This document shows, in pieces, positions 8,326 through 48,869 of a DNA stretch of 48,869 bases; within the stretch, counting starts at the first letter, position 1; the number at the start of each line of letters is the position of its first letter. The DNA lies in the IMG/VR virus record IMGVR_UViG_3300009009_000018, positions 1 to 48,869 of that record, one strand, 5' to 3'. The notes under the pieces were generated by a model. That model did not search any database. It was not told the DNA's origin and worked only from the letters and a program-made list of their open reading frames with translations. The DNA comes from a virus. Position numbers and translations under genes: made by a program.

Positions 8326-8330
8326 CTTAT

Positions 8331-8382
8331 TCTCCAATAATTTAAACTACTTAGTAGCTGAGTGCGTACAGGAGTAAACCCC
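8331..8382 (-). repeat. Effector-island 5' leader repeat, copy 6 (diverged)
   Basis: This is the most distal and most diverged copy. It keeps TTAGTAGCTGAGTGCGTA and then GGAGTAAACCCC. Its upstream half overlaps the last codons of the actin-like gene. GGGG and CTCC can still pair if a G-U pair is allowed. Confidence 0.7.
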
Positions 8383-9352: not shown

Positions 9353-9394
9353 ATTTGATTTCCTTCCTAGCAGCTTATTTTTCCATTTGCGATA

Positions 9395-9404
9395 TATAAT
9401 CTTA
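9395..9404 (-). promoter_or_regulatory. Candidate promoter element (TAAGATTATA)
   Basis: The motif lies on the minus strand 43 bp before the preferred start of the actin-like gene, overlapping the stop of the gene before it. This placement supports the shorter start at 9352 and a separate transcript for the actin and effector genes. Confidence 0.4.
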
Positions 9405-9713
9405 GGCTTTATCATTTTTTCTTGTTTTTAACTTAGCAATTCCTTCTTCATCAAGAGACGACTTGGTCGTAGACACAGATAATAAACTAGCCTTACTACT
9501 TTTGATTCCAGTTGGCATAAAAGGCAAAGTATCAAAATTTGTGTCGATTTCTTCTACTGCAGGCACAGATAGAGAAGGCTGATACGAATAAGCATAAGGA
9601 GAATCTGATAGAATATCCTCTTTCTGTTTTGAAAGAAGTCTCTCTAATAGCGAGTTTTGTTCCTGCACCAACTCTTTATGCGATTTCCTAATAAAAAACT
9701 TTTTACTGGCCAT
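9402..9713 (-). CDS. Small KKFFI-type protein, coiled-coil N-terminus
   Basis: This 103-residue protein starts MASKKFFIRKSHKEL, closely like MAKKFFIKSSSD of the gene at 11309. A short coiled coil (QNSLLERLLSKQ) follows, then a low-complexity Ser/Pro/acidic tail. No family is recognised. The shared start suggests a second kind of localisation or assembly tag in this phage. AAGAAAGGA lies before the ATG. A perfect palindrome (9732-9749) sits 19 bp before the start and may control the gene. Confidence 0.65.
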   Translation of the reverse strand: MASKKFFIRKSHKELVQEQNSLLERLLSKQKEDILSDSPYAYSYQPSLSVPAVEEIDTNFDTLPFMPTGIKSSKASLLSVSTTKSSLDEEGIAKLKTRKNDKA

Positions 9714-12502: not shown

Positions 12503-15445
12503 TTAGCCCAACCAATCCAAAAGACCCAATTCTTGTAGGCGGATGAACTGTTGTTGTCCGGGTCCGCTCGACACGGGGAACACCACGTTTGTTCGATATC
12601 GATATGGACGAGTAGCAATAGATCCCACGCCCGACGCCTGACGAACGAGCTGTTGTTTTACTTTCGAGACGCTCGTATCGAGTGTTTCTTTGAACGTAGA
12701 CATTATTCCTTCGATGTCTGCCCCCGGGTTATAGTCGAGCGATACGGTCTGTCCTGAGTTGTGTGTGACCAGCCCGTTTGTGATGAAGGCATGATCAAGC
12801 GGCCTACCCTGTTCCAGAAAGCTGGGGTCCACAACATCTCGTCGCCCTAATGTCTCTATCTCCGTAACTTTTTTCCATAGAAACTTAGATTCTAAGAGCA
12901 GATTAATGTGTTGCCAAATAGTCGCATCCAATTGCTGAAGATCATCGCCACGGTCTTTAAACCATCGTTCAATATGCTCCCACGTTACATATAGGCAATG
13001 ACCGTTCTTGTGTGGGCCTTTAGCATTATGTGCCCAATATACGGAGTAGCGTTTTCCGTCCTTCCATCCTCTTTTAATCCCTAACCTATTAGGAAGATCC
13101 ATTAAGGCATGGAGTACTTCGGGGTTGAGTGCTTCCCTTTGTGGGTAGTACCTGCTCTTGGGTTTAAATTCGTTTCCTTTAGTTAGAAAACCTATCTTAT
13201 CTGCGTAGCTAACAAGACTAGGACCACAAATGGTTACTCGCCCGCAGCCATCCGAACTTTTCTTAGGATTAAATTTTTTAGACACGATTCCAAATCTTAA
13301 CAGGAGCTGCTGTAGGTCGCTAAGAAGGTGGTGTGACGAGGAGCAGAAGATTACCATTCCTTCGGAATAGCAACCATCTCCTTCAAAGTAACCGCGAATA
13401 AAGTCACATGCGATACGTTTAGGGGATCTAAAAATGATGTCAGGGATTCTAAGTTCTGGAGATTTTTCATACCCAAAACCTAACGAGAAGAAGAAACGTC
13501 TAATCTCTACACCTGTCAAAGAGTAGATATAAATTGTTTTATTATTTTCGCCACCGTAAGTCCCCTGACTATTATCATGTGATCTTAAGAAATCAGCCTC
13601 TTTTCCAAATGCAGCTACGCAGCAGCGGTTAAAATCTTTAATTATTTCTAAGTCCGTATTTGAGAAAGTAATGCGATCATATTGAGAATGGCAGCCCTCC
13701 GCTATTAAATAACCACAAAGACGTGCCAGTTCTGATGTCATTTTGTTAGGTAATGAATACGGAGATTGGGTCTTTCCGGTGCTGACACTATAAACAGCAG
13801 CTAAGTTTTCTTCAAAAGAAACTTCCCAATCTTCGTTCTCGCTTGTCTCAGTCACCTGCTGCGCTATAAGATCACCTGCTACAAGGTTATCGACTGTTTT
13901 CCACTTCATCTCAAAGGTGGTAGTGTCCAAAGTGAGCACGGGGTGATTTCCTGTAGCGATAACTTCATAACCCAGCTCATTTTCTACTCTGTAGACTTCC
14001 TTTTGCTTTAAATACCAAGCAAGCACCGGCTTTTCGTAACCGTAAGGGGTTAGAAGATCAGGGAAATCTAGTTCATAACACCCCTCTTCTGGTTGATAGA
14101 ACATTCCGTAGTTGTCTTCTAGATGTTGACGGAACTTCGGTACATCCCACACTGGCTTGCCTAAACTGTCAAAATAGCGATATGAGTTTAGTGTAAACCG
14201 TGAGAATAACCCACCTAGTGCCACTGGAGTTGCCGGGTCTCTCGGATCTCGATTGTTAACAGAACACGATCCAAAAGCGTTAGAGTCAAGCCCTAATGCT
14301 TCTATAATCTCGATGCTACGAGTGCCGTCTTCAAAACATTGACAGATAATATCAAATAGTTTTTCTTCGTTGCCGTAAATTAGTTGTTTGCTAATATTTT
14401 TACGCATTAGAATAGAACGATCAAAGATAAGATCCTTTGCTCGGATCATACCCTGCTTGGTTGGAAGTAGTGTTTCGAGATCCACGCAGAAACTCAAATT
14501 TGTCTCTGCATAGAGAATCCTCTGCGCATTTAATCCCCACCACGCACCCGCCAGAATGATAAAGGCTTCGATAGCATTAGGAGGGGAGGCCACATTATAA
14601 TTGGTAGGCGGCCAGTAGGAGTTTACCATCTTAGTACCTTCTAGAAGGTACTCATATAGATCTTCATTTGCATAAGCAAACGATAGGCCCAGCTTCTTTT
14701 GTAGCTTGTCGATAAGCATTCGCAGCGAATTTATAAGATGTGCAGAGGCAGTAGAGATGACTTGCACTACTTGATGTTCAAAATCTAATTGAGATAACGT
14801 GGTGTCTCTTACTTGCCAAAGGGCACTATAAGATCCCGCTTTTGTTACCGCAGGAACATCTACGTAATACGTAAAACCGGTCCCATCCTCAATTTCAACA
14901 AGATCGTATGGTGTCGGAGTTGCGGTAGGAAGACTCGCTGCAAATAAAGGAGTTGTATCCTGCCCTTTAACAAATAGTTTGACGGATAGTTCGATGGGAC
15001 GCACGGTGTTTTTAAAAAAGAGGCGTATGGGCGTATTTACAAACGAGAGAAACTGCTGCAGCTCTGGTACCTGCGGAGTTACGGCAGATTCTACAACATC
15101 GAATTCTAATGCCAGTTCCCACTGCCGCATTTCCTTATCTACCATGACGGTAGAGAGCTGGTATCTGCGGTAGGGTTGCGTTAGTTGTGCCGTGCGTGGG
15201 ACAACCCAACCAACCTTCCACGTTCCAGGCGTTCCCGCCGGAACGGCTACCCCTTGTGCTAAAATAGTACCCGAAGGATCGAGAATTCTATATGACGGAT
15301 ATGCCTGCGGATCAAGCGGCTGAATTGGTTGCGTTTCAGCTTGGTCATAGAAAAACTTCCAAGTGAAGAATTCGAGATTCCCACGGGTAGCGATTCTTGA
15401 GGTTGCCTGTGATGCTTGTCGTCCCGCGTCTTGTGGTAATACCAT
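12503..15445 (-). CDS. Virion-type structural protein interrupted by a large intein
   Basis: The 980-residue precursor contains a 577-residue intein (residues 320-896). Splicing would join residues 319 and 897 (NLSF to SGQTV) to give a 403-residue protein. The extein begins with beta-sandwich sequence (LEFFTWKFF, SYRILDPSGTILAQG, GTWKVGWVVP) and ends with a helical region and a polar tail (SSGPGQQQFIRLQELGLLDW). This looks like a tail, baseplate or neck component, but I recognise no family. Inteins usually sit in nucleotide-binding enzymes, so a structural host protein is unusual. The extein has Ser at +1. AAGGAT precedes the ATG. The gene converges with the PIN-like gene, with only 4 bp between the stops. 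Confidence 0.8.
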   Translation of the reverse strand: MVLPQDAGRQASQATSRIATRGNLEFFTWKFFYDQAETQPIQPLDPQAYPSYRILDPSGTILAQGVAVPAGTPGTWKVGWVVPRTAQLTQPYRRYQLSTVMVDKEMRQWELALEFDVVESAVTPQVPELQQFLSFVNTPIRLFFKNTVRPIELSVKLFVKGQDTTPLFAASLPTATPTPYDLVEIEDGTGFTYYVDVPAVTKAGSYSALWQVRDTTLSQLDFEHQVVQVISTASAHLINSLRMLIDKLQKKLGLSFAYANEDLYEYLLEGTKMVNSYWPPTNYNVASPPNAIEAFIILAGAWWGLNAQRILYAETNLSFCVDLETLLPTKQGMIRAKDLIFDRSILMRKNISKQLIYGNEEKLFDIICQCFEDGTRSIEIIEALGLDSNAFGSCSVNNRDPRDPATPVALGGLFSRFTLNSYRYFDSLGKPVWDVPKFRQHLEDNYGMFYQPEEGCYELDFPDLLTPYGYEKPVLAWYLKQKEVYRVENELGYEVIATGNHPVLTLDTTTFEMKWKTVDNLVAGDLIAQQVTETSENEDWEVSFEENLAAVYSVSTGKTQSPYSLPNKMTSELARLCGYLIAEGCHSQYDRITFSNTDLEIIKDFNRCCVAAFGKEADFLRSHDNSQGTYGGENNKTIYIYSLTGVEIRRFFFSLGFGYEKSPELRIPDIIFRSPKRIACDFIRGYFEGDGCYSEGMVIFCSSSHHLLSDLQQLLLRFGIVSKKFNPKKSSDGCGRVTICGPSLVSYADKIGFLTKGNEFKPKSRYYPQREALNPEVLHALMDLPNRLGIKRGWKDGKRYSVYWAHNAKGPHKNGHCLYVTWEHIERWFKDRGDDLQQLDATIWQHINLLLESKFLWKKVTEIETLGRRDVVDPSFLEQGRPLDHAFITNGLVTHNSGQTVSLDYNPGADIEGIMSTFKETLDTSVSKVKQQLVRQASGVGSIATRPYRYRTNVVFPVSSGPGQQQFIRLQELGLLDWLG
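12758..14488 (-). mobile_element. Intein with LAGLIDADG homing endonuclease in the structural gene
   Basis: The intein starts at Cys1 (CVDLETLLPTKQG, block A). It contains VIATGNHPVLT, a block-B-like GNHPV. Two dodecapeptide endonuclease motifs follow (LARLCGYLIAEG and FIRGYFEGDG), both with acidic residues intact. It ends GLVTHN before Ser. All splicing residues are present: Cys1, the block B His, the penultimate His and Asn, and Ser+1. At 577 residues it is large for this type, with extra sequence between the endonuclease and the C-terminal splicing block. It should be active as a protein-splicing and possibly homing element. Confidence 0.9.
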
Positions 15446-22284: not shown

Positions 22285-25200
22285 ATGGCTACTAAAAAAC
22301 AATCAGAAGTTACAGCTCCCATCCCTAATTTTGATCCCTTAAAATTGATAGAAGATTCCATCAATGAGGGTTTTGATCCTGCGATGGCTACAGAAATCGA
22401 TGAGAGAGATCTTAATTGGTGTCCTAACGTTTGGCAATGGATAACAGATCCAGACTATTTAGGTATCAGTACAATTTACCCAATACAGATGCAGGTACTT
22501 CTAAAGCTGATGGGCGATGTGTGCCCTTGGTGTTCTGATTGGGAGTTTTACGTCAAAGACTTCGATGTACTTGCAGACATGGGAAACGTGCGGGATCGTT
22601 TACAACTTCTCGAATTTGGAAACTGCCCTAAATGCGGTAAAACAAGATATGATCAATATGCAGAAGGATTGTGGAATTTTCCTAATGAATTAGACCTGTT
22701 ATGGGGAATGCGGTGCTGCCATTTTGACGCACTTGTGTTCACTGATAAAGGATTAGTTAAATTAAAAGATGTAAATGTTGGTGATACCTTGACGCACGGT
22801 ATTGTGTCTGAAAAGTTCGATTCTGGGACATTACCATCCCTCCTACTTACAACGGATTTTAATTGGACACTAACAGGAGCTAAAGAATCCCATATTGTTC
22901 CAATATTAAATGCAGATTTGGAATTAGAGCATAAGTTAATTAAAGATTGCAAAGTAGGTGAGTACTTAGTGCTTCATTCCCCAGATCTATGGTCAAAAGC
23001 TAGATATCAACTGAATCCATTTATTAGGGAAAAGAACCACGGATTAGAGAAATCCTTTAATTTCCCGACTGAAGTTACTTCAGAGTTAGCCAGATTTATG
23101 GGTTACCTTGTATCTAATGGTAATTATACATCACTGAGTCATATAGAAATAGCATCAAGTGATCCAGAAACGGATGCTGATATACGAAGGTGTATTTTAT
23201 CAGTCTTTGGTGAAGAGCCAAGCCGCGTAGCCTATCAAAATACAGATAAATGCCGTAAATTAATGTTATGTGGGGTAGCTATTACTGAATGGTTATCTCA
23301 TATAGGGATGACGGATAAAACCGCTTACACTAAAGATAAATGTATCCCAGATTTCATCCTTCAGTCCCCCAAAGAGATTGTATGTGAATTTCTAGCTGGT
23401 TTGTTCGAAGGTGATGGCGGCCTTTATGTCGAAAAGGTAGGGGATCGAAGTAAGGTTCTGCTTTATTACACCTCTGCATCTAAAACGCTTATCGACCAAG
23501 TAAGACTACTTCTACTTAACTTAGGTATCGTAACCAACCTATCTAAATTTGTATCTAACGGCTTTAGTAAGGCAAATACTTATCTTGGAGATATTAACCA
23601 AGAAGAAGACGAAAATACTAAATACAGTTACCGTATAGCTACCAAATGTGCAAAATTTATTGAAATTTTCAAAGATAACGTGCGGCTTGTATCTCAAGAT
23701 AAATTGGATGCTCTCCAACAACTGAGTAAGAAAGGACGAGTCCGCTACCATACGCCTTTGGGTGATTTTCAACTAGGGACAAAAAGATGTCCAGATAAAG
23801 TAACGGAATTAGCCAAACAGGGGTATTTTTTCGTAAAAATAAAAGACATTAAAGACGGTCCTGACCTCCCGATGATGGACGTTCATATACCAATAACTAA
23901 CATATACACGGCTGATGGTTTTGTTCATCATAACTCTGGCAAGTCTGCTATCGTTGGTATCCTCTCCAGCTACCACCTTCATAGACTATTAAAGATACCC
24001 GATCCTGCATCCTACTATCGGCTTCTTAAGGGATCTCTTTTGGTAATGCGTTTTGTGGCCCTCACGGCAGGACAGGCCAATGAGTCGCTTTGGCATCAGT
24101 TTACTCGTTCTGTAGAAACATGCGCTTGGTTTGGTCAGTATCATGACTTTTTAAAACACCATGAGAAAAGATTGGGTGTTGAGCTTAATAAATGGCTTAC
24201 TCAATCTTTTGGGTATACACATAAGAAACTCTCTGGTTACTACCTTGGTGCATCTATCGATACCTCTAGAGGTAGAACAGCCGTAGGTTCGTTTTTCGAT
24301 GAAATTGGTTGGTGGTTAGGTGATGATCAAAGTAAACGGGCTAATCCTCATGAAACATACCAAGCCTACCAGAAAGCAAGTCGTACTGTAAGGAACGCAG
24401 CCGCATCTAGGTTTACCTCTGGTCAATATGATGTACCTACAGCCTTAATGGCTTGTGTATCGTCTACATCATCTAAAACCGATTATATTATGCACCTCAT
24501 TAAGATGGCAAAGACTGACACAAAACGAGTGTCGTCCCATAAGGCATCATGGGAGATTAACCCAGAATTTGCACTGAACCCTGATGAATTGCGTGCAGAA
24601 AGAGAAGCGAATTTTAAAACCTACCTTAGAGATTATGGGTCTATTCCTCCTTTTACGGAGTCCCCCTTCTTTGATAACGAGGATGCTGTTATTCGTTGTG
24701 CGAAGCTACCCATTCCAATTTGGAATGTAACTGTAGAACAGGGAGAGGTGGGTTATTATTTAAGTGCGATGAATGTAGAAAAGAATACAACAATCCCTTA
24801 CTGCCTTGCGATAGATCTAGGACACAGTGAATGCGGGTATGCAGCTTCATTGTTAAAATTAAAGGAAAGCGATTTTTCTACTATTCAGATAGCGGGGCTT
24901 TTTGCAGTCTACCCTAATAAGAAAAAGGGTGAGAGCGTAGATATGTCAAAATCATTCGTATTCTTTATTAAAAAGCTGTGCGAAGTGCTACCTATCAGAT
25001 TAATTGTGTATGATCAATGGCAGTCTAAGAGTCAAATACAAGAGCTACTTGGGTTAAAAATAACAGCGGAGCAGTACTCTTTAACGTATTCAGATTTTAC
25101 TTATTTTCGGAATCAAGTATTACAGGCAAAATTGGAATATCCTGAAACTGAAATTCCAATAGGCGACATTGATAAATCACCAGATAGCCACCAAGAGGTG

Positions 25201-25545
25201 CTAAAAGATAAGCCTTATTTGCATTTTTTGTGGCAGATGCTAAGTGTAGCTGAAATAGGTAGAAAGATCACAAAAGGTGCTGGGCATGATGACTTGTTTC
25301 GTGCCACAGTTCTAGGTTGTAAATATTTATGGGACGATGATTACAGGCGAGATTTTGAATACAGGCAAGGAATGCTTCTTGGTGGTGTGCGAGGAAGAAC
25401 AAGTAAAGGTAGACTCGTTATTGCTGGAAGTACTCGTGGTGGGCAGATGTTTACTACGGCATCTGGGGGTGGACATAATGCCACGGTGGCAAATCCCCAA
25501 GGCGGTAGAACATTAGGGGCGGTGATTACTAAATCCAAAGGTTAA
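22285..25545 (+). CDS. terL: Terminase large subunit (packaging ATPase/nuclease), intein-interrupted
   Basis: The motor pumps DNA into the prohead and cuts the concatemer. The 1086-residue precursor holds a 406-residue intein (residues 145-550), leaving a 680-residue enzyme. Splicing rebuilds the Walker A loop as GMRCSGKS. Walker B is FFDEI (Asp672, Glu673 in the precursor). The RuvC-like nuclease has Asp844 (AIDLGHS), Asp910 (VYDQWQ) and GHDD (1002-1003). Before Walker A, two CxxC pairs (CPWC, CPKC) form a probable zinc ribbon, which is unusual in this family. The activity depends on splicing. The gene lies 24 bp after the leader-bearing gene at 21517 and leads the packaging cluster. Confidence 0.95.
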   Translation: MATKKQSEVTAPIPNFDPLKLIEDSINEGFDPAMATEIDERDLNWCPNVWQWITDPDYLGISTIYPIQMQVLLKLMGDVCPWCSDWEFYVKDFDVLADMGNVRDRLQLLEFGNCPKCGKTRYDQYAEGLWNFPNELDLLWGMRCCHFDALVFTDKGLVKLKDVNVGDTLTHGIVSEKFDSGTLPSLLLTTDFNWTLTGAKESHIVPILNADLELEHKLIKDCKVGEYLVLHSPDLWSKARYQLNPFIREKNHGLEKSFNFPTEVTSELARFMGYLVSNGNYTSLSHIEIASSDPETDADIRRCILSVFGEEPSRVAYQNTDKCRKLMLCGVAITEWLSHIGMTDKTAYTKDKCIPDFILQSPKEIVCEFLAGLFEGDGGLYVEKVGDRSKVLLYYTSASKTLIDQVRLLLLNLGIVTNLSKFVSNGFSKANTYLGDINQEEDENTKYSYRIATKCAKFIEIFKDNVRLVSQDKLDALQQLSKKGRVRYHTPLGDFQLGTKRCPDKVTELAKQGYFFVKIKDIKDGPDLPMMDVHIPITNIYTADGFVHHNSGKSAIVGILSSYHLHRLLKIPDPASYYRLLKGSLLVMRFVALTAGQANESLWHQFTRSVETCAWFGQYHDFLKHHEKRLGVELNKWLTQSFGYTHKKLSGYYLGASIDTSRGRTAVGSFFDEIGWWLGDDQSKRANPHETYQAYQKASRTVRNAAASRFTSGQYDVPTALMACVSSTSSKTDYIMHLIKMAKTDTKRVSSHKASWEINPEFALNPDELRAEREANFKTYLRDYGSIPPFTESPFFDNEDAVIRCAKLPIPIWNVTVEQGEVGYYLSAMNVEKNTTIPYCLAIDLGHSECGYAASLLKLKESDFSTIQIAGLFAVYPNKKKGESVDMSKSFVFFIKKLCEVLPIRLIVYDQWQSKSQIQELLGLKITAEQYSLTYSDFTYFRNQVLQAKLEYPETEIPIGDIDKSPDSHQEVLKDKPYLHFLWQMLSVAEIGRKITKGAGHDDLFRATVLGCKYLWDDDYRRDFEYRQGMLLGGVRGRTSKGRLVIAGSTRGGQMFTTASGGGHNATVANPQGGRTLGAVITKSKG
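22717..23934 (+). mobile_element. Intein inside the terminase Walker A motif
   Basis: The element begins at the second Cys of RCCHFDALV (CHFDALVFTDKG fits block A) and ends VHHN before Ser. Splicing residues Cys1, the penultimate His, Asn and Ser+1 are present. Two dodecapeptide motifs mark a LAGLIDADG endonuclease. LAGLFEGDG has its acidic residue, but ARFMGYLVSNG has Asn where the first catalytic Asp/Glu should be. The endonuclease is therefore probably crippled while splicing should still work. The insertion point in the P-loop is the most conserved site of the gene, as is typical for inteins. Confidence 0.92.
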
Positions 25546-25883: not shown

Positions 25884-26258
25884 ATGCAGTTTTTAGAACG
25901 TGTGGAGAATTCTTATTTTGTGGTAGAGGCTGGAGTCACTCCGGCAAGGAAACCATCAAAATTGACTTCCCACAAAAGTAATAAAAAAGATGTGCTACCT
26001 AAAGCCTCTGAGGGAGCAGAAAAGGTATCGTTTTCTGAATTAACGAATACACGTAAACTGACTTCGTTCATTGAGAAAGAGTTACAGTTGACAGATCCTT
26101 TTAATTTTACAAATGAGACTTGGACAAGATTTACTAAGAAGGTTGCACCTAAATTGTTAACTGCACTTCTTATAGATATGAACATTGTTCCAAGAGCTAG
26201 AAAAGCAGAATTTGCTCGTTACTTAGAGCGGAGATTACGGACGTTGGCAAAAAATTAA
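25884..26258 (+). CDS. Leader-bearing small head protein, candidate scaffold or core component
   Basis: The leader is the clearest outside the island (MQFLERVENSYFVVEAG) and keeps the VEA boundary. The 124-residue product then has a basic, Ser-rich stretch and a helical basic end (RKAEFARYLERRLRTL). It starts 4 bp after the zinc gene and ends 20 bp before portal. Small core proteins removed by the prohead protease lie in this position in T4-like phages, so a scaffold or internal protein is likely. This is inference from position and leader. Confidence 0.65.
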   Translation: MQFLERVENSYFVVEAGVTPARKPSKLTSHKSNKKDVLPKASEGAEKVSFSELTNTRKLTSFIEKELQLTDPFNFTNETWTRFTKKVAPKLLTALLIDMNIVPRARKAEFARYLERRLRTLAKN

Positions 26259-36282: not shown

Positions 36283-39200
36283 ATGGCAATTGCAACTCTA
36301 GCAACTACTCGATACGTCGAGGTGGGTACGTACATCGGTCAGTTCTACTTGCCCGGAGCAGGGGCACTACCAAACGAAGCCCGAGTCGTATGTCTTGTCG
36401 GTCGTGGCGATCGAAACATCATGATTCGGAATAGTCAAATACGAAGAGCATTCGTATATGAAGAGCAGCTTACGTTTTCTACTTTGGCACCTTTTGTAGC
36501 ATCACTTAATTTCCCTGCAGATGGAAATCAAAGTAGTCCAACAAGTTTACGCACCGGTGATGGTGTGGAGATTAGTGCAAACAAATGGTCTTATGTACTA
36601 GATGGTGGTGAGTATAAAAAAATCCAACTAGTAGATTCTGCTTACGATCCGATGGCACAATTCTATTTATCCTACCAATCGACTTCTCGTGACGTGATTG
36701 ATCCAATCCCTGCGATAACTGTACAGTCGTTGTCGGCTGTTGCAGAAGTAAGAGAGATTACTGCACTTGGTGTTTTACAAGATCAACAAGAATTTGAAGA
36801 GTTTAAAGATTTTGTTGGTACTTATGAGATTGATACTTTAGTGGGAGAGGCATCAAACTCTAACCCATCGTCTGGTTTTTCTAGCATTACAAGCGCGGCG
36901 ACAGGCTCAGGACTGTTAACCTTAAATGCATCTTCTCTTTTCTCTCATGCATATAACAGGGTTTATTCATTAGAGTGCGTTACATCTTCTGGTATTACAC
37001 CAACAAGAGCAGCCGAATTTAAATGGACATCAGCTCCTGTAAGTTTTGGTAACCATGCACTTCCTTCCGTTCCACTTAACCCAGCAGAAGATGCACCTAC
37101 ATTTACAATCGATGAGTCTAATCCTAGCTCCTACACTCAGCTTTTAGAGCTTGGCGTTATGGTTGATTTGGATTTTGGTGCTACGAACTTTGCTGCTGGT
37201 GACCTATTTTATTTTCAAGGAAACGGTCCTTCGTTAATAGAGATAGACCCTAAACTGTTAAACGCAAATCAGTTTACAGAATTCTCATCTGTCGTACCAA
37301 GTATTGACGCACTCAGCACTGGTAGTGTAGCGTTCTCTTCTTTGGCTGCAGACTATGTGTATACTGAACACAACATGTCTTTTCGTTTAAAAGTTATCTC
37401 CGTCGCCAATACAACGCCGACTAGAACTGCGGTTTTTGCTTGGGCAGGTTATGGCACCATGATGGCTTCTGGATCTTTCACAATCGACGAAGCATCTGCG
37501 ACTAGTTTAGTGCAGCCTTTAGGTGCATCAGGCATTAAGATGGAATTTAGCTTCGGTGCGTCACATTTTGTAGTTGGAGATGTATTCAGCTTTACCGTTT
37601 CTGCTCCTCGCTTATTCTACAAAGGAAAAGAGGCCGTAAGAAATACTAAATTCACCGTAGGCGCTGTTTCTTATCCAGCAGTTAATCGTGCCGCAATCGC
37701 CGGTGCGTTTGTTACGGACACGGCAGAAGGGCGTTTTGGCAACTGGCAAGCAGATACGGCAACAAATCAAGGCCGGTTTGAGATTCCAGACGGTTTACGG
37801 TTTTATATCCGAAACGCATACTTAAGTGATCTTGTAAACCCAACTCCAAGTGGCTCTCGATTGGCTTCTGGTGATGTGTTTAATATGCAAGTGCGTTTTA
37901 CAGGTGGTTTGGATTTTAGTCTTCTCCGCGATGAGACACAGACCTTCAGCAACCCGTCGGAGATTGCAACGGATACGGCAGGGGCTATCACAGGAACTGT
38001 GGGGGCTCGATATATTACGCTTAGTAACATGCCTGTGACAATAATGAGTGTTACAGAAATCGCCACTGGTGATGCAGTATCGTTTATTCAGGTAACAGGA
38101 ACTCCTTACCTTGTTATCACGCAATTAGGTTTTAGTACATCCAACGGCGACTTGATGGTAAATTATCGCTGGAGAGGTGGAGAGCCTTCCCCAGGTCAGA
38201 TATATTACATGTCGGCTAAGTATTTGCGTCCAAACGCTTTTTACAATCGTCCCTTCTTATTTTTAAGTAAGTCGGACTTAGAGAGTTTCTTAGCACCATC
38301 AACAGTGAGAAACGATCTTTATATAGGATCACAGGTTTGTTGGGACTATAACATTCCGGCACTATTTGTTATCCAAGTTAAAGATGCGGATGATGATGGT
38401 ATGTATTCAAGAGAAGACTTCAAAGTTGCTATTGAGGCTTTCCGCCAAGACCGTAGGGCAACTGATTTAGTTGTACTTAACTATTTCAATGCGTTACCGG
38501 ATCAATTGCAAATCGTTAACATGTGTAATGATCCTTTCGAATTGCACGAGTGTATGACCTACATCGGAACACCGATTGGGACTACGATCGGAAGTGAAGT
38601 CGAAGTTGGTTCTTTAATCTTCTTATCAAGAAAGACTCTTGCTGTATATGGACAGTCTCCAGCACACGGAACACGTGTTCTTGTAAGTGCGACTCGTGCA
38701 ACAAGAACGATTCAATTAGAAGATAAGACAAGCACCTCGGTAACATTAGACGGATCTTTTGTTGCTGCTGCTCTTGCTGCGTTAAACTCTTCTTTTGTTG
38801 ATCCAAAAGAGACGCTTCTCTTTAAACAGGTCACAAGTTTTGACACGGTTCAGACTTACACTAATCCAGAAAATATGATGTTAGGTGGTAACAACATTAT
38901 TTTCTTTGGTGATGAAGGTAATGGTATTTATAGGATTAAAGAAGACGTTACTACAGATCCTTTCTCTCCAGACACTTTGAATATAAACCAGATGGTTCAA
39001 AAGCAATTTGTTACGCGAGATATTCGTAGGGTTATTAACGGCTCTCTTATTTCTATGGTATTCCCGTCTGCGGAGACTGGGGTTATCACTCTTCAGTCCA
39101 TTTTGTCATCACGCCTTTCTACGCTTGTTGGTAATAACCTAATTGGTAAATACCAAGATGCTTCCGGTGCGATTAGAGATTTAGATCCTGCTGCAGATGC

Positions 39201-39327
39201 GCTTGTGTTCCGAGATCCTGCAGATCCAACTCTTTTCCACATCGGATACAATTACTTCTTGGCAACAACGGCAAAACGAGTGTTCGGTCTTTATACCGTA
39301 AATTTAGCTGGTGGTTTTCCTAAATAA
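36283..39327 (+). CDS. Contractile tail sheath protein (very large)
   Basis: The sheath surrounds the tail tube and contracts to drive it through the host envelope. The N-terminus (TTRYVEVGTYIGQFYLPG) and the C-terminal half (LNYFNALPDQLQIVN, ENMMLGGNNIIFFGDEGNG, NINQMVQKQFVTRDIRRV) fit the sheath core. At 1014 residues it is far longer than T4 gp18 (659). Two tandem beta domains (about 210-335 and 345-460) share TPTRxA, FTIDE and GAxxFxxGDxFxF patterns, and are probably surface decorations. GAGAGAGAGG precedes the ATG. The tube gene follows 101 bp later, separated by a strong hairpin. Confidence 0.9.
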   Translation: MAIATLATTRYVEVGTYIGQFYLPGAGALPNEARVVCLVGRGDRNIMIRNSQIRRAFVYEEQLTFSTLAPFVASLNFPADGNQSSPTSLRTGDGVEISANKWSYVLDGGEYKKIQLVDSAYDPMAQFYLSYQSTSRDVIDPIPAITVQSLSAVAEVREITALGVLQDQQEFEEFKDFVGTYEIDTLVGEASNSNPSSGFSSITSAATGSGLLTLNASSLFSHAYNRVYSLECVTSSGITPTRAAEFKWTSAPVSFGNHALPSVPLNPAEDAPTFTIDESNPSSYTQLLELGVMVDLDFGATNFAAGDLFYFQGNGPSLIEIDPKLLNANQFTEFSSVVPSIDALSTGSVAFSSLAADYVYTEHNMSFRLKVISVANTTPTRTAVFAWAGYGTMMASGSFTIDEASATSLVQPLGASGIKMEFSFGASHFVVGDVFSFTVSAPRLFYKGKEAVRNTKFTVGAVSYPAVNRAAIAGAFVTDTAEGRFGNWQADTATNQGRFEIPDGLRFYIRNAYLSDLVNPTPSGSRLASGDVFNMQVRFTGGLDFSLLRDETQTFSNPSEIATDTAGAITGTVGARYITLSNMPVTIMSVTEIATGDAVSFIQVTGTPYLVITQLGFSTSNGDLMVNYRWRGGEPSPGQIYYMSAKYLRPNAFYNRPFLFLSKSDLESFLAPSTVRNDLYIGSQVCWDYNIPALFVIQVKDADDDGMYSREDFKVAIEAFRQDRRATDLVVLNYFNALPDQLQIVNMCNDPFELHECMTYIGTPIGTTIGSEVEVGSLIFLSRKTLAVYGQSPAHGTRVLVSATRATRTIQLEDKTSTSVTLDGSFVAAALAALNSSFVDPKETLLFKQVTSFDTVQTYTNPENMMLGGNNIIFFGDEGNGIYRIKEDVTTDPFSPDTLNINQMVQKQFVTRDIRRVINGSLISMVFPSAETGVITLQSILSSRLSTLVGNNLIGKYQDASGAIRDLDPAADALVFRDPADPTLFHIGYNYFLATTAKRVFGLYTVNLAGGFPK

Positions 39328-39428: not shown

Positions 39429-39977
39429 ATGAGTAACTTTACACGCGCAGCAAACAAGGGATCTCAAAATAGTTATGGGGTGAAAGATGTTTCCCCTCTC
39501 GACTATAAATCAACACAAGGTGCATTGACTACAAAAGTGTATCACGGTGTAAGTATCACAACTGGTGACAGTAATATAATTGGTAGAATTCAATCTTGGC
39601 AACCAGACTCCTACACAAGAGAAGGCATTCACTTATATGAATTAGCCGATCTTTCTTTTGGTAGACCAGTCGAGTACGTCCCAGGAAAAGCGACGGGTTT
39701 CACTATCGCAGTTACCCGTGCTGAAGTATGGGAATCCGAAATGGAAATCGCGTTTGGATTTGGTACTACCTTTGATGATCTAATTGATCAAACACGTCCA
39801 TTCTCTGTAAAAGAGTTTTGGATTAAAGGCAATGCAGGATACTCTCAGGTGTGGGATTATAAAGGTTGTTGGTTCACAGGCAAGAACATAGATGCAATCA
39901 CTAGTGATGGTGATGGTGTTACTAAAATTTCTGCGACCTTGGCATATGTATCGAGACAGAAATCGGTTAGTAAGTAA
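39429..39977 (+). CDS. Tail tube protein (T4 gp19-like)
   Basis: The 182-residue length and position directly after sheath match the tube protein of contractile tails. The visible beta pattern fits the tube fold: FGRPVEYVPGKATGFTIAVT, WESEMEIAFGFGTTFDDL, FWIKGNAGYSQVWDYKG and ITSDGDGVTKISATLAYVS. GAGG precedes the ATG by 9 nt. A TAGATTAAAC word upstream is a weak version of the TAAGATTA motif. Confidence 0.85.
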   Translation: MSNFTRAANKGSQNSYGVKDVSPLDYKSTQGALTTKVYHGVSITTGDSNIIGRIQSWQPDSYTREGIHLYELADLSFGRPVEYVPGKATGFTIAVTRAEVWESEMEIAFGFGTTFDDLIDQTRPFSVKEFWIKGNAGYSQVWDYKGCWFTGKNIDAITSDGDGVTKISATLAYVSRQKSVSK

Positions 39978-40013
39978 ATACTAAAGGTGTATACGCAGAA
40001 GAGGGAATAAAAG

Positions 40014-41669
40014 ATGCTTTTATTTAGAGAAGTATATGGGTGGTTACGCTATCTAGTGACCAAAGATCCACTATGCAATAGCCATGGGGTAATAGTTGAG
40101 GAGATATACTCAACATTTGCTCCATTATCAGATGCGAATGACGGAGTTAGAACGCTGGTCATTCACAGAGTGCAAGATGGCCTGACACCGAGAATTGAGT
40201 TCCGTGCTATCGGTATTCATCCACAAATATACTGGTATCCAGAAGGAGCATCCGAAGGAACTCTCGTTGGTGTAACTAACCAGTTTGGTTTTACGGGTGA
40301 CTATAAAAGTTGGGACTGTAGTGATCTTTGTCAGTATCTCCTTCTTCTGGCAAAAGATAAATTTTGTGCCGAGGCCGATAAGGTTGAAGACGAAAAAGTA
40401 GTAGCGAATACCGTAATTGACTATCCAGTCGTAAAACGGATTTTGGATGCTGTAGAACGCGCATCGCAAAAAGGAACTAGACTTACTGGTGACATGGTTA
40501 ACAAATGGTTAAAAGAGAATAAACAAGGCGATCTTATGGATTTTGCCTTAAGTGTCATGCACTGGTTTGACAAGGGTAAGATCCAATGGAAAGAGATTGA
40601 CTACTTAGAAGATGAATACGCACCGGGCAAGGACATCATTGATTGGTCGTGGCTTAAAAGGCAGTTGAATACAGGAGACCGCATCGATAAGCTACCTCCT
40701 CCAATAGCAGACCGTGTAGTATCTTCTGTAGAAAAGATGTCGGATACAGCGGTACAATCTCGATTTGATAACATTCTACGTGACTTTTCCCGTGGAAAAC
40801 AGATATCAGCATCGTTGACTACAAATGCAGTTAGGCTCGGTATTTCCGCTATTTCTCACTTTAAAGACGGAAATATTCCATTTCATTATCTGCAGCAGTT
40901 AGAAATTTGCGATCCTTATGAAACAGTGCTTCCTTGGTCTTTCGTACGTAGGAACGTATTAAGTTATTCTCAGGGAATACATGCTGTCACTACAGATACA
41001 CTGCCAACGCTAATTCTATCTTGGTTAAAAGACAGTCATCTTCTTATTTTGTTATATAAAGGTGAGACAGACCAAGAAGACGCACTAAGCAAAGCATTAG
41101 AAGCACAGTTAACTCATCATATCGGGCTTACACTCACAAATGACGCATGGATGAAATCCATGCTTAGTTCGTTGGCGTTAAATAGCGTAGCTGACATGAA
41201 ACGTTCCCTTCAAGTGGAATTTGATCTTTGGCTTTTAGATGCGTTATCTCCTGCAATCAAGCAGTGGAAATTACCACTTAGCCCCCACGCTTTCTCTATC
41301 GAACAAAAAGATCAGGAAGCATATGGGAAAATGTATAAGACGTGGGAAAAGATCGTTAAAGACTATTTAATTACGTACAGAGAAGAATCGGGTAAAAGGC
41401 TACTAGATGCTTTAACTCAATTTTACTCTCAGCTTATGAGCATGTGGAAAACAGAGGAGTTAAAAGACTATAAAGCGAAAATACCATCTGCTACTAAGAT
41501 ATTAGACGCAGTAGAGAAGGGTAATTTAACTGGTCTTTTAGATTTACTTTGTGAGGATTTCGAAAATGAAGTAGGCAGTAAAATACCACAAGAGATCAAA
41601 ACTAAGTTGTTAGCAAGTCCATACTTTAATGCAATTAGCCGTGAGGTTAAAGTACAAGGCATGTTATAA
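40014..41669 (+). CDS. Large helical protein of unknown function after tail tube
   Basis: The 551-residue product has an N-terminal beta region (IEFRAIGIHPQIYWYPEG). The rest is almost wholly helical, with Trp- and Lys-rich helices (LPWSFVRRNVLSYSQG, KMYKTWEKIVKDYL, MSMWKTEELKDYK). No motif is recognised. In many myoviruses a tape-measure chaperone or tail assembly gene follows tube, so a tail role is possible. GAGGGA precedes the ATG. Confidence 0.6.
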   Translation: MLLFREVYGWLRYLVTKDPLCNSHGVIVEEIYSTFAPLSDANDGVRTLVIHRVQDGLTPRIEFRAIGIHPQIYWYPEGASEGTLVGVTNQFGFTGDYKSWDCSDLCQYLLLLAKDKFCAEADKVEDEKVVANTVIDYPVVKRILDAVERASQKGTRLTGDMVNKWLKENKQGDLMDFALSVMHWFDKGKIQWKEIDYLEDEYAPGKDIIDWSWLKRQLNTGDRIDKLPPPIADRVVSSVEKMSDTAVQSRFDNILRDFSRGKQISASLTTNAVRLGISAISHFKDGNIPFHYLQQLEICDPYETVLPWSFVRRNVLSYSQGIHAVTTDTLPTLILSWLKDSHLLILLYKGETDQEDALSKALEAQLTHHIGLTLTNDAWMKSMLSSLALNSVADMKRSLQVEFDLWLLDALSPAIKQWKLPLSPHAFSIEQKDQEAYGKMYKTWEKIVKDYLITYREESGKRLLDALTQFYSQLMSMWKTEELKDYKAKIPSATKILDAVEKGNLTGLLDLLCEDFENEVGSKIPQEIKTKLLASPYFNAISREVKVQGML

Positions 41670-41678
41670 GGGGTTAAT

Positions 41679-41897
41679 ATGAGCGAGGAGACTTTAGAGT
41701 ATTTAGAACAAGTTCTCTCAGGTCTACGCGCTAGATTTGCTGCGGGTGATAAAAGTGTGGAAGCTAAACTTAGAGCAGTATCCGCAAAAGTGGATCAAAT
41801 AAGACTACAAAATGAGTTAGCAAAACCATTACCCACACCCATAAGCATAGGCCAGCAGCTAGCAAAGATAGTTAAACGTCGAAGTTGCTGCCGTTAA
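41679..41897 (+). CDS. Small helical protein
   Basis: This 72-residue protein is a single charged helix region (LEYLEQVLSGLRARFAAG, EAKLRAVSAKVDQIRL) with a basic Cys-ending tail (KRRSCCR). AGGGG precedes the ATG at 10 bp from the stop of the previous gene. The open frame of the next gene overlaps it only if that gene's longer start is used. No family is recognised. Confidence 0.55.
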   Translation: MSEETLEYLEQVLSGLRARFAAGDKSVEAKLRAVSAKVDQIRLQNELAKPLPTPISIGQQLAKIVKRRSCCR

Positions 41898-41911
41898 TAA
41901 AGGGGGTGAGT

Positions 41912-42391
41912 ATGAAATTGATAGTAGAGGGAGAAATTAGTGCAACAAGTTATAAAAAACTTGTGACCCGTTTGCGCCATTTAAATAAAAAACAGCTTTG
42001 GGAGATATTAGATCATTATCTCTTCCACCTTATGTCGGATAAAGATGTAACGGAGCTGATGAACATATTAAATGAGCGTGCGCTAACAGATCAGCAAAAC
42101 ACAACTAATGAAGTAGCGGCTTCTGCCTTAGATGACGACTTATTTTATGTAGTCGATCCTCAAGATCGATTTAATCCTCCCGTCATAGCCACTGTCCCAT
42201 CAGATGAAGGCTTAGAAAAATTTAAAGGGCAACTTGATCTTTTGTACGATCAAACCTGCTTTTCTTACTATATCGAGCCAGAAATACGTACAGAGGTTGC
42301 GAAGAAGCTTATATCGTTTGCTACTGCATCCAACCTTCCAATTTTAGATCATTGGAAAGTATATAGTGAAGAAGAAGGGGAAGTCTCTTGA
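41912..42391 (+). CDS. Head-type protein with second leader class (MKLIVE)
   Basis: I use the ATG at 41912, with GGGGG 5 nt upstream, giving 159 residues. The product begins MKLIVEGEISATS. I-V-E followed by G fits the T4-type prohead protease cleavage rule (I or L, any residue, E, then a small residue). The rest is helical with an acidic patch and no known motif. It overlaps the next gene by 4 bp (TTGA), and that gene begins with the same kind of leader. Packaging into the head is inferred. Confidence 0.55.
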   Translation: MKLIVEGEISATSYKKLVTRLRHLNKKQLWEILDHYLFHLMSDKDVTELMNILNERALTDQQNTTNEVAASALDDDLFYVVDPQDRFNPPVIATVPSDEGLEKFKGQLDLLYDQTCFSYYIEPEIRTEVAKKLISFATASNLPILDHWKVYSEEEGEVS

Positions 42392-45300
42392 ACCTCATCG
42401 TAGAATCAGCGGTAAATAAAAATAGTGATATGATCGTCTCCATTCCTAAAGGCGGTTTTATTATTCGTAGTACTGAGAACGAACTTAAAAAATTAAAGAT
42501 CGGAAATCGCTTCTATCTATACGTTGATGACGTGGGGGAAATTAGTCATCTAGGGGGTTTATTTAAACATGAACCCACACGCAATGATGTTATTAGCCAA
42601 AGCGCATTTAAAGATGCAGCAACAGCTTCTTTTTCCTTAGAACCAAAAAGGACTTCCTTTGGCACACAAGAGCAACAAGACTTACATAAAGAGTCTATGG
42701 GATTATTTGGCTCTCGTCTCTCTCCATCCTTTATACAAATAGATAAAATTAAATTAGGTGAAACAAAAATAGGGGAGCGTACTTTTCCGTATGCCTTTAT
42801 CACAGGAAAAGTAAATAACGTAAAAGACGCAAGATTAGACTACCTAAGTGATCACGAAGAAACTACTTTTGGTAAAGGTCAATTTGACATCGATGATGTT
42901 AGAGCATTACCAAATGGAAAATTTTTATATCTTTCCTTAACTCCTTACGCAGAACAGATTGAGCGTCTAGTTGAAGAGCAAGTGGAAGCGTTTAATCATT
43001 ACTCCTCATTGTATGGATCGGAATCAGAAGAAAAAGCAGATTGGGTGTCTAAGTACGAACACACACGAAAATTACTAAAGCCCCACGCTGGAGAAATCTA
43101 TAAGTATAAAGATGGCTTTATCTATTACATAAATTCTGGTGGCAATTGGCAAGTAGAGTGCGTCTATGGCATGAGAAAATTAGACATTGTTGATAGGGAG
43201 CGTATTTATCAACATCTAGTCCAAACGGGAGAGGTAACGTCAGATCTTAAAGAAAAAAGACAGTTATTATCTTCAAAACCGTTTCTTGAACAACGAAAAT
43301 TAGACCATATAGCACATGCTCTTCAGCCTCACGTGACGGCAGAGAGAAAAAAAGATAGTTCTGAAATCGACCGATTGCAGAAGAAGTTGGCGACGTTAAA
43401 ACCTACGGATGGTCCTTTGGGAGTAAATGACCTTTCTGGCTTACGAAAGGGAGTAGATCTTTTTCCGCACCAATCTATGGTCCTCGCCTCTTTAAAAGAA
43501 CGAGATCGCATGTTGGTGGATGCAGATCCAGGAGCAGGGAAAGCCCTCACCATCATATGCGACGTACTCCAACAGATGCGAGCAGGTAAACTGCAACGCC
43601 CCCTTGTCGTCATGCCAGAATCTCTAATGACGCAGTTTGCGCAAGAAGTTAAACGATTCTCTGAGTTAAACCCATGGATAATATCTACAGACAGTATTAA
43701 AAAATGGGGTAAGACAAGAGAGCTACCTGAGTTTATAGAAGACGCAAAACGAGCACCAAGAAATACGATATATCTTACTTCGTATACGTGGCTATCGTTA
43801 GATCCTGAGCTAGTAGATAACGGAGAAATAACCGAAGGCTTGGGTAAGATAGGATACCGCAAAATAAAAGTATTTAATCGTCCTAGTATTCTATTAAAGC
43901 GTCTTGGGGTAGATGCTGTTTATATGGATGAGTGCCATCTTTTGCGTGGCAACAGCAATAAAGCACGTGCTGCATCCGCTCTTTCCGAAGCGCCAATTGT
44001 TCGTGGATTAACAGGAACCGTGATGGCTGGTAACCCCTATGACGCAGTAGCGCCCATGTCCTATATACATTCATCTGTGTTTGGAACGCAGGATGATTTT
44101 ATTAACGAGTACACTGCGAGTGGTAGCATTCACGACTATAAAAAAGAAGCTCCAAAAAAAATTCGTAGTCGGCTAAAAGGTTTCGGTGTTGTTCCTGTGC
44201 GTAAAAGTGCTTGGATGCACCTTCTTCCTACAGTCCACAGACAAGTTCACTATGCGGAGTTTTCACCAGACCAGAAAAAAGCATATGCTGCTCTCCTAGC
44301 CAATATTATGGACGAAATCCGTAATGACCCTAGACTATCCGCGCTTTTAAAAAGAGTGGAAGAATCTTTGAAAAACGGCGAAGAGATTGACGCTGGTCCT
44401 CTTTTGGCTCGATTCACTCCTCTTGACGTGTTTTTAAATTCTCCTTCGGAAGCTAAAGACTGGCTAAAAGGGATTATGCTTGGAGAAAATGCAGTTAGCC
44501 CAAAAGCTAAAATCATATCTTCTATTATCCATAAACACCTAGCCATGCCAAACGCAGGAAAAATTCTTGTCTTTGTTCAATATAAAGAAGCAGCAAAAAA
44601 TCTACTTGAACATTTAGACGAAAGTTTAAAAGCACAGGCAGACTACTACGAAGGTGGAATGACTGGGATTCTTACTAGATTTAAGTCACCACAAGATCCC
44701 CTTAAAATACTCTTTGCTGTAGATAAATCTTTAGTCATGGGACATAACCTACAGGTGGCTAATTGCATCATCCATGCTGACGTAAAATGGATGTTTGGAG
44801 ACATGTTCCAAAGAGAAGCAAGAGCCGCACGTAACGGGCAGACAAGAGATGTTTACATCCATACCGTACTTATGCGAGGATCGGCTGAAGTCCTTAAAAT
44901 GGCACGCGTTATCTCTGCAGAACATCTCATAGCAAAAGCAAATAGCGATTTTACTGACGACACGGTTTTGCAGCCAGTAAGAATGACGCTTTCTAATATG
45001 CAAGCCTTTACAGAAGAGCACCAACTTTCTCCTTATATCGAACGAAAACAAGCAATTGAATCAGGAGCAAAGACGCAATCAGAAAAAGAAAAAGATGTCT
45101 ATGGTCCTACTATGGTACGCCCACACGGGTACACTCCGATTACAAAGACATTTGCAGAAGCAAAAGAGCTTAAAAAAGTTCCATCTTCTCACGATTTTAG
45201 TGGAGACGAAAGAGACCTAGAAGAACTCACAGAACAAGATATAGAAGATCTTCCAGAAGATCCTAAACATCCAAAATTGCTTAATTTGGGTTTAATGCAG

Positions 45301-45921
45301 TGGGATAACGATTGGTATATTTACTCCTACAAATCCGCAGATCCCGACGGATTTCTCCGTAAGTTAGGGTTTTCTCTTATGCGTGGTTACTACTATGTGG
45401 AGATACCATCTAAAAGCAGTGTTGATAATTTAATTAATCGACTTGAAAAGACATTAAAGATTACGAATAAATTGGAATTCGAACGTCAAGTAAGAGAAAC
45501 TCGCGTCATTACGCAAGGAGTAAAAGAAGGGCTTAAAAAAGCAGCCCAAAAAGCACGACAAAACGTAGCAGCAAAAGCCGAAGTAAGTCCCGATTATATC
45601 GATAAGTCAAAAGCAGGAGAGATTGAACTTCAGTTCGGGGTTGTCGATGGTACTCCGGTTGTATGGACGCACGCAGTATTAGACACCAATGATCCAGAAC
45701 TACCAGCAATTAAACGTGCTGGCTTTACTCTTGAACCTCCACTTTGGCGAAGATTAGTAACAAGATCTCTTCTTAAGTTAATACTTAAAAAGCTTCAGGA
45801 TAATTATCCTCAAGCCCGCATTGCAAATTGGGATCAATTTAAAGACATATCCCATATGACATTTAAGGGTTTGGATCTTACCGAATTCGATTCTTTAGCC
45901 CTCGCTGGAAAGAAATCATGA
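42388..45921 (+). CDS. SNF2-type helicase, candidate virion-packaged protein
   Basis: The 1177-residue protein starts at a TTG overlapping the previous stop. MNLIVESAVNKN is a leader like the one before it (I-V-E, then S). After about 360 residues of unknown sequence the helicase core begins: VDLFPHQSMVLASL, Walker A as DADPGAGKA (Lys385, with Ala386 in place of Ser/Thr), DECH at 514-517, GLTGT, and a second lobe with ILVFVQYKEA and REARAARNGQ (about 808-818). The C-terminal 300 residues are mixed and unrecognised. SNF2 proteins translocate on duplex DNA. A packaged one could protect incoming DNA, as proposed for P1 DarB. The Ala substitution may lower ATPase activity. Confidence 0.85.
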   Translation: MNLIVESAVNKNSDMIVSIPKGGFIIRSTENELKKLKIGNRFYLYVDDVGEISHLGGLFKHEPTRNDVISQSAFKDAATASFSLEPKRTSFGTQEQQDLHKESMGLFGSRLSPSFIQIDKIKLGETKIGERTFPYAFITGKVNNVKDARLDYLSDHEETTFGKGQFDIDDVRALPNGKFLYLSLTPYAEQIERLVEEQVEAFNHYSSLYGSESEEKADWVSKYEHTRKLLKPHAGEIYKYKDGFIYYINSGGNWQVECVYGMRKLDIVDRERIYQHLVQTGEVTSDLKEKRQLLSSKPFLEQRKLDHIAHALQPHVTAERKKDSSEIDRLQKKLATLKPTDGPLGVNDLSGLRKGVDLFPHQSMVLASLKERDRMLVDADPGAGKALTIICDVLQQMRAGKLQRPLVVMPESLMTQFAQEVKRFSELNPWIISTDSIKKWGKTRELPEFIEDAKRAPRNTIYLTSYTWLSLDPELVDNGEITEGLGKIGYRKIKVFNRPSILLKRLGVDAVYMDECHLLRGNSNKARAASALSEAPIVRGLTGTVMAGNPYDAVAPMSYIHSSVFGTQDDFINEYTASGSIHDYKKEAPKKIRSRLKGFGVVPVRKSAWMHLLPTVHRQVHYAEFSPDQKKAYAALLANIMDEIRNDPRLSALLKRVEESLKNGEEIDAGPLLARFTPLDVFLNSPSEAKDWLKGIMLGENAVSPKAKIISSIIHKHLAMPNAGKILVFVQYKEAAKNLLEHLDESLKAQADYYEGGMTGILTRFKSPQDPLKILFAVDKSLVMGHNLQVANCIIHADVKWMFGDMFQREARAARNGQTRDVYIHTVLMRGSAEVLKMARVISAEHLIAKANSDFTDDTVLQPVRMTLSNMQAFTEEHQLSPYIERKQAIESGAKTQSEKEKDVYGPTMVRPHGYTPITKTFAEAKELKKVPSSHDFSGDERDLEELTEQDIEDLPEDPKHPKLLNLGLMQWDNDWYIYSYKSADPDGFLRKLGFSLMRGYYYVEIPSKSSVDNLINRLEKTLKITNKLEFERQVRETRVITQGVKEGLKKAAQKARQNVAAKAEVSPDYIDKSKAGEIELQFGVVDGTPVVWTHAVLDTNDPELPAIKRAGFTLEPPLWRRLVTRSLLKLILKKLQDNYPQARIANWDQFKDISHMTFKGLDLTEFDSLALAGKKS

Positions 45922-46304
45922 CAGATATAAAATACCCAAAGGCTAGAAAAGCAAAAAATCCCAATACAGATGTCGTCTTTATATATGAATCAGGCGGAAG
46001 AGATGTGGTGGATCCTTTCAGCAAAGATTCGTTAGAAATGCTCGCGGATGAGACAGAGGGAAGTTGGGAGATAGACTTACGAAATACATCTAGGCGAGAA
46101 AACGGAGGGTATCCAATAGAAGAAGATGAGTGGGGATATCAAAAAGACGTACAGGTGTACCCGTTCTATTACTCAAAAAAAGGAGCGCCAAGAGGACAAG
46201 GATACCCAATTGAAAAACTGTGGTGGCAGAAAGCACTTAGTAGCTTTAAAACCGAAGTTGAGTGTAAGTATCAGATTTTGGTAAGTAAACGTGACAGACT
46301 GTAA
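45918..46304 (+). CDS. Small protein after the helicase, unknown function
   Basis: The 128-residue product overlaps the helicase stop (ATGA), so it is translationally coupled. It has DVVFIYESGGRDVVDP, a Trp/Tyr-rich centre (WEIDLRNTSRRENGGYP, VQVYPFYYSKKG), and a basic C-terminus. No family is recognised. It may work with the helicase. There is no leader. Confidence 0.55.
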   Translation: MTDIKYPKARKAKNPNTDVVFIYESGGRDVVDPFSKDSLEMLADETEGSWEIDLRNTSRRENGGYPIEEDEWGYQKDVQVYPFYYSKKGAPRGQGYPIEKLWWQKALSSFKTEVECKYQILVSKRDRL

Positions 46305-47600: not shown

Positions 47601-47660
47601 TTCCTTCTCTTATGTCACTAAGTCGGTACTCGCTTATTTTTAAATTTTAAGGAGGCATTT

Positions 47661-48869
47661 ATGGCTTGGTCATCGTCTTTATTAGGTTCTCTTATCCCGC
47701 GTTCGTTCAACTTAGGTAAACAAGTTTCTGCAATTGGAGTAGGAAACAAAATTTTATTCGTTGGTGGTTGGGATTGGTCGTCTTATGACACTATTGACAT
47801 CTTTGATACGCAAGCTTCTACTTGGAGTACACAGCAATTAGTATCTGCATACAAAAATCTTTCCTGTACAGTACGTGACGGTAAAGCTCTCATGTATGAT
47901 AGCTTTAACGGCTATCTGTACATCTATAATCCAGCAACAGACTCGTTAGTAAAACGAGATGTGCGCAATCTGGAGGAAAATTTAGTAGAGGGATTAGATA
48001 TTGCACTTGCTGCTACTTCGGCAGGCGGTGTACTCATGCCTGATAAATATGGGGGGGTTTATTATATCGATCCTTCTTTCCTTTCGGAAGGTGACAACAG
48101 CCAAATATACGCAGTGCCTGCAGGCTCCGGAGCAATTGTTGGTTGGTGTTTTGGTCTTAGTGTAGGTACAAATAGGGTTGTTTTTGCTGGAGGAATAAAT
48201 TTAAATGATGATCCTTCATCTGTAGTTGAAGTTTGGGAAGATTCTGGACAAGGAGCAAGTCTCGTCCAATCAAGCACCCTTCCCAACCCAAGACGTTACA
48301 TGTCTTCGATCGTAGTAGGAAATAAAGTATTTTTTGCTGGTGGTTATTTAGATGGCCCGGCATCTTACACTAATATTGTTGACATCTATGATGTAGTAGG
48401 TAATAGCTGGTCGTCTGCCACACTACCTGTTGCACGAGGGAAGATGGGCGTTGCAAAAACAGGTAATAAAATACATTTTGCTGGCGGATTTACTGACGGG
48501 GAAATCCCATCTAGTGTTGTAGATGTCTATGATGCAGATGCCAATAGCTGGTCGACTTCTTCTATTTCGGAAGCGAGAGGAGAACTCGCTGGTGCTTTTA
48601 CTAGCGATGGTAGTAATTATTTTGCGGTATTTGCTGGTGGATATGATGGCCTGTCTTCTTACTCTATGACTGCAGATATTTATTCACAAGCTGCCGCTCC
48701 TTCTTTCCCTACTGACGTTACAGGTGCAACAACACTTAATCCTACTAGTGGTTCTGACATTGTTTTTCCTAATGATGTATCTGTAGACGCGGGCGGCGAT
48801 CTAACTCTTAATGTTACAAAAGTAGGAAACCTTAAAGGAGATAAGATAATAGCAGTTGCAGCAGGAGGA
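47661..48869 (+). CDS. Second Kelch-repeat protein, C-terminus cut by window edge
   Basis: The frame is open for 403 codons to the window end without a stop. Kelch-type repeats begin near residue 22 (VGNKILFVGGWDW, NIVDIYDVVGNSWSSATL, VVDVYDADANSWSTSS). A diverged middle (about 85-190) lacks clear repeats. The visible end (DVSVDAGGDLTLNVTKVGNL) matches the C-terminal domain of the Kelch protein at 3054 (NLVVAAGGKLTLNVADLDRL), without the fibronectin-like part between. AAGGAGGC lies 6 nt before the ATG. A virion-surface binding role is likely. Confidence 0.8.
   Translation, partial: MAWSSSLLGSLIPRSFNLGKQVSAIGVGNKILFVGGWDWSSYDTIDIFDTQASTWSTQQLVSAYKNLSCTVRDGKALMYDSFNGYLYIYNPATDSLVKRDVRNLEENLVEGLDIALAATSAGGVLMPDKYGGVYYIDPSFLSEGDNSQIYAVPAGSGAIVGWCFGLSVGTNRVVFAGGINLNDDPSSVVEVWEDSGQGASLVQSSTLPNPRRYMSSIVVGNKVFFAGGYLDGPASYTNIVDIYDVVGNSWSSATLPVARGKMGVAKTGNKIHFAGGFTDGEIPSSVVDVYDADANSWSTSSISEARGELAGAFTSDGSNYFAVFAGGYDGLSSYSMTADIYSQAAAPSFPTDVTGATTLNPTSGSDIVFPNDVSVDAGGDLTLNVTKVGNLKGDKIIAVAAGG

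Follow-up and report, generated by a model that had tools for sequence, protein, structure and literature searches.

A SNF2 helicase of a jumbo-phage family and its small upstream neighbour: plausible virion cargo, probably without cleaved leaders

In the genome of an uncultured large myophage two adjacent genes encode proteins with very similar first residues, MKLIVE in a small protein and MNLIVE in a large helicase. An earlier note on this DNA had read both hexapeptides as one class of leader that is cleaved by a T4-type prohead protease, and had compared the helicase with DarB of phage P1. This raises two questions, namely whether the shared start is a leader at all, and whether the helicase is carried in the virion. 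The window, i.e., the whole stretch of DNA that was analysed, comprises 48,869 bases and contains the complete IMG/VR record, which is a piece of the phage genome. Its portal and its helicase match those of the jumbo phages PaBG, Motura, BcepSaruman, PhiXhv and the P. putida PpuM group. The sole close relative found was a contig of 109 kb (IMGVR_UViG_3300045125_000169, hereafter G001), which was reached via a 67% identical homologue of the putative tail tube gene.

The starts of both genes were verified at the level of the open reading frames, and it was confirmed that the adjacent products begin with MKLIVE-G and MNLIVE-S. The small-protein gene (41912..42391, plus strand) starts with the ATG at 41912, which is preceded by AAAGGGGGTGAGT; its product of 159 amino acids begins with MKLIVEGEISATSYKK (N-terminus MKLIVEGEIS) and has no Pfam match. 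The helicase gene (42388..45921, plus strand) starts with the TTG at 42388, which is preceded by GAAGGGGAAGTCTC; its product of 1177 amino acids begins with MNLIVESAVNKNSDM (N-terminus MNLIVESAVN). The two genes overlap by 4 bp, and a purine-rich site lies upstream of each of them. The TTG start is supported by the G001 orthologue, which opens with ATG at the corresponding position (MRLILAK); the next in-frame start of the helicase is the ATG at 42430. A start of the small protein at TTG 41885 was rejected owing to a weaker upstream site, although the resulting length would match the G001 protein. The supposed leaders thus occupy 41912..41929 and 42388..42405 (both plus strand). A recent duplication of one leader was also rejected, since the codons for L, I and E differ between the two hexapeptides.

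Pfam, the family profile and fold matches all identify the product of the larger gene as a SNF2 helicase, and place it in the known jumbo-phage family phrog_62. The Pfam matches are SNF2-rel_dom (PF00176, 5.8e-12, residues 374-645, 43507..44322, plus strand) and Helicase_C (PF00271, 1.3e-7, residues 717-817, 44536..44838, plus strand), and phrog_62 covers the SNF2 core (3.9e-52, residues 288-921). The helicase has tblastn matches in 92 phage records, and it matches SNF2 enzymes in the PDB both by sequence and by fold (Foldseek), including RapA, CSB and Rad26. It is 56% identical to its G001 orthologue over residues 329-883; indels disrupt the reading frame of the latter beyond residue 10. Motif II reads DECH (43927..43938, plus strand). 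In the Walker A motif (43531..43545, plus strand), where GK should be followed by T or S, the helicase reads GAGKA, whereas G001 has GAGKT. The residue after the lysine is alanine (GCC, 43543-43545) instead of threonine (ACC), a difference of one base. From the sequence, GAGKA may mean a reduced helicase activity, or it may stem from an error of the assembly at this base. The structure models give no reliable information on the N-termini, as the pLDDT is below 50 for residues 1-323 of the helicase and for residues 1-6 of the small protein.

The gene pair closes a tightly packed run that opens with the tail sheath gene (36283..39327, plus strand; phrog_279, 6.6e-7) and has small gaps or overlaps throughout. 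The sheath gene lies upstream of the pair on the same strand and provides a late-gene context. It is followed by the putative tail tube gene (39429..39977, plus strand), assigned from its position and the G001 homologue, and by two more tightly spaced genes (40014..41897, plus strand). Downstream, a gene for a protein of 128 amino acids without a family match in Pfam or PHROG (45918..46304, plus strand) overlaps the helicase stop by 4 bp. In G001 the order of the pair is retained (43% identity for the small protein), and the pair lies on the strand opposite to the tail genes. The helicase gene of Motura and BcepSaruman precedes the gene annotated as head maturation protease by three genes, and the major head protein is encoded further on, while the helicase gene is near DNA polymerase genes in PhiXhv-15 and PaBG and adjoins gyrase genes in RHEph12. 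A blastn search with 39429-46301 against phages yielded no match. Scans of viral_contigs with the helicase as single sequence and with window plus G001 alignments of both proteins revealed no additional close relative, nor did a scan of genome_contigs with the helicase reveal a close relative.

Several further features of the window were observed. The gene at 8351-9415 (minus strand) encodes a protein with a strong match (6.1e-67) to the Pfam family Volactin, which is actin-like. Several proteins (5433-8337, minus strand; 25884-26258, plus strand) start with MSFL or MQFL followed by an amphipathic-looking stretch, and similar starts are present in G001 (L008, L070). By eye, apparent intein-like insertions ending with HHNSG or THNSG were seen at 22285-25545 (plus strand) and 12503-15445 (minus strand), and Kelch-like repeat motifs near both record ends (3054-4625, minus strand; 47660-48869, plus strand). 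Weak matches to RNA 2'-phosphotransferases were obtained for 704-1231 (minus strand), and 6433-6906 (minus strand) looks ADP-ribosyltransferase-like by eye and has no Pfam match. Genes for related proteins with weak PARP-fold matches immediately adjoin the helicase gene in G001 and in a second relative, G002 (L062:2-670, minus strand; L009:8083-9063, plus strand).

Published data on Pseudomonas phage PaBG bear on the location of the helicase. Gene product 202 of PaBG was found as band 1, a Coomassie-visible band of 221 kDa, in CsCl-purified particles (PMC7412058). Of all PaBG proteins it alone matches the family profile, and it is homologous to the window helicase (BLASTP 3e-14; phrog_62 7.6e-33). 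Both proteins share the SNF2 core and the helicase C domain, and each gene is immediately preceded by a small one. The virion protein gp202 is an example of the phrog_62/phrog_21391 jumbo-phage DNA helicases; it differs from the window helicase in length (1969 versus 1177 amino acids) and in its N-terminus, the identity over the core is about 25%, and the GKA of the Walker A motif in the window is a further difference. The N-terminus of gp202 is devoid of a MNLIVE-type hexapeptide. The presence of gp202 in virions supports a virion location for the family and shows that in PaBG this particular leader is dispensable for it. By analogy, it is plausible that the helicase is carried in the virion of the window phage, and both the late-gene setting and the head genes nearby in Motura and BcepSaruman agree with this location. 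In the literature, virion proteomics of this helicase family was found for PaBG only. A crude-lysate table for Erwinia Agrican357-type phages lists no helicase in the portion covered, and the virions of phiKZ carry a predicted helicase, too (review PMC13282480).

In G001 the gene immediately before that of the helicase encodes a homologue of the small protein with 43% identity, and in many jumbo phages a small gene likewise precedes the helicase gene. A profile of seven such upstream proteins gave a weak hhalign match with the window plus G001 profile (E 2e-4, C-terminal 47 columns), and this one match suggests that the small protein is homologous to them. As a single sequence, PaBG_00201 remained below significance against the small protein (E 0.038), the upstream proteins of Motura and BcepSaruman look different from it, and tblastn with the small protein against named phages yielded no match. 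The gene order makes it a probable partner of the helicase.

Taken together, the preferred explanation, which is given about an even chance of being correct, is a SNF2 translocase that is encoded in a late operon next to a small partner, is probably present in the virion and acts on the entering DNA. The helicase would be made late, from the operon with the tail genes, would be carried in the virion and would be delivered on infection. It would then translocate along the double-stranded DNA of the incoming genome and could, for example, strip off host proteins or interfere with restriction, and the small protein would be its loader or regulator. We infer the late expression, the packaging in the window phage, the delivery, the action on DNA and the role of the small protein. 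The proteins with weak PARP-fold matches that adjoin the helicase in two relatives also speak for this explanation. Against it speak the low identity and the far greater length of gp202, the GAGKA motif, the roles proposed elsewhere for such enzymes, the single weak match behind the family of the small protein, and the low confidence of the structure models at the N-termini.

The rival that survives best holds that the helicase stays out of the virion and, as part of the late or the replication programme, serves recombination-dependent replication, the preparation of packaging or transcription in the infected cell. A comparative review has proposed that the Snf2/Swi2 helicases of group 1 and group 3 jumbo phages replace UvsW, and that an enzyme of group 1 acts together with RNA polymerase (PMC7824862). 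The proximity to DNA polymerase genes in PhiXhv-15 and PaBG and to gyrase genes in RHEph12 fits such recombination or RNA-polymerase-linked roles, as do RapA, CSB and Rad26 among the fold matches. However, gp202 forms a Coomassie-visible band of PaBG virions, the window gene follows tail genes, and the gene is near head genes in Motura and BcepSaruman. A purely intracellular enzyme is less probable than the preferred explanation but retains an appreciable chance.

A leader interpretation would explain the packaging by the N-termini themselves. According to it, MKLIVE and MNLIVE are capsid-targeting propeptides of the T4 Alt type, which a prohead protease severs behind Glu-6 and which bring both proteins into the head. 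T4 Alt starts with MELITE followed by LFDED, and it is cleaved at ITE-6 with the loss of six residues (PMC5694885); the common N-terminal form of the Alt propeptide and the window proteins is M-x-L-I-x-E. Both window N-termini indeed satisfy the T4-type rule, [IL]xE followed by [AGS], as had been claimed, but the rule itself is not enriched in the window (3 of 42 N-termini versus 1.4 expected). A looser pattern, [VI]E[AGS] within the first 20 residues, is over-represented there (six of 42 proteins, 1.2 expected). It had been picked after inspection of the data, and G001 then served as held-out data; no enrichment was observed in G001 (3/84 versus 2.9 expected), and the pattern was not over-represented among 628 proteins from other relatives either. 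The start M.[LIV][LIV].E was found in a single one of 564 proteins called in relatives, so that two neighbouring starts of this kind are improbable by frequency alone, though this pattern was also chosen post hoc. M-x-L-I-x-E is absent from all other helicase N-termini among those listed.

When the supposed sites were compared with G001, the putative cleavage-site glutamate was missing in both of its proteins. In the small protein, KLIVEG of the window is aligned to an internal KIQVTG, nine residues from the start, with threonine in place of glutamate. In the helicase, MNLIVES is replaced by MRLILAK (MRLILA at the hexapeptide), with alanine in place of glutamate; an ADE-S further downstream is uncertain owing to the broken frame and was left out of the comparison. 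In a control pair, which consisted of the protein encoded at 25884 (MQFLERVENSYFVVEAG) and the homologue of that protein in G001 (MSFLQSLEKRYAECQAG), the overall shape was retained while glutamate was changed to glutamine. With the Motura head maturation protease as query no match was obtained in the 109 kb of G001, and matches were obtained in five more distant contigs. The G001 pair resembles that of the window in gene order and in the equivalent helicase start, with 43% and 56% identity, and differs in the lack of both glutamates, in its GAGKT Walker A motif and in the strand relative to the tail genes.

The claim of a leader class is therefore unsupported. Probably MKLIVE belongs to the fold of the small protein and MNLIVE is simply the N-terminus of the helicase, and neither is a cleaved leader. 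The leader reading is called unlikely and nothing stronger, because glutamate conservation was compared in a single relative, whose sequence contains indels. The putative leader cleavage in the window differs from that of T4 Alt also in that the site is not conserved in the nearest relative and the cargo is unrelated, and the PaBG virion helicase starts with MGSLFTLNSLSAAIDAA; Alt-type propeptides are thus left with a small probability. A slim chance, smaller still, is given to a recent gain in this lineage of Alt-like hexapeptide leaders on the helicase and its partner, both cut after Glu-6, by which a two-part DNA-remodelling machine would be delivered with the genome and targeted unlike its PaBG counterpart.

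The parallel with DarB holds in one respect and fails in another. DarB is borne in the virion, and its first 30 residues suffice as targeting signal (PMC9024508); like the window protein it is a large SF2 helicase, and hhalign aligned the two over the SF2 core alone (1.3e-9). A weak match to the DarB-like phrog_10089 was also obtained. In contrast to DarB, the helicase has no methyltransferase, as the earlier note had stated: Pfam at E below 0.01 yielded helicase domains only. P1 Ulx did not match the small protein (hhalign E 0.26), and its gene is downstream of darB whereas the small gene is upstream of the helicase. By analogy the helicase may work like DarB in its role, but not in its domain content. 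A DarB-type antirestriction protein in the full sense, delivered with the DNA to block type I restriction and with the small protein as counterpart of Ulx, is the least probable explanation, in view of the missing methyltransferase and the missing Ulx match, despite the aligned core, the phrog_10089 match and the virion-borne DarB.

The preferred explanation, a late SNF2 translocase with a small partner, ties an unexplained jumbo-phage helicase family, whose neighbour gene is conserved in the nearest relative, to the virion data for PaBG gp202. The analysis also advises caution, as short N-terminal matches need to be checked in orthologues before they are taken as protease sites. For the family, a question is thereby made testable, namely whether a SNF2 translocase enters the cell along with the phage genome, and how it would act on the DNA.
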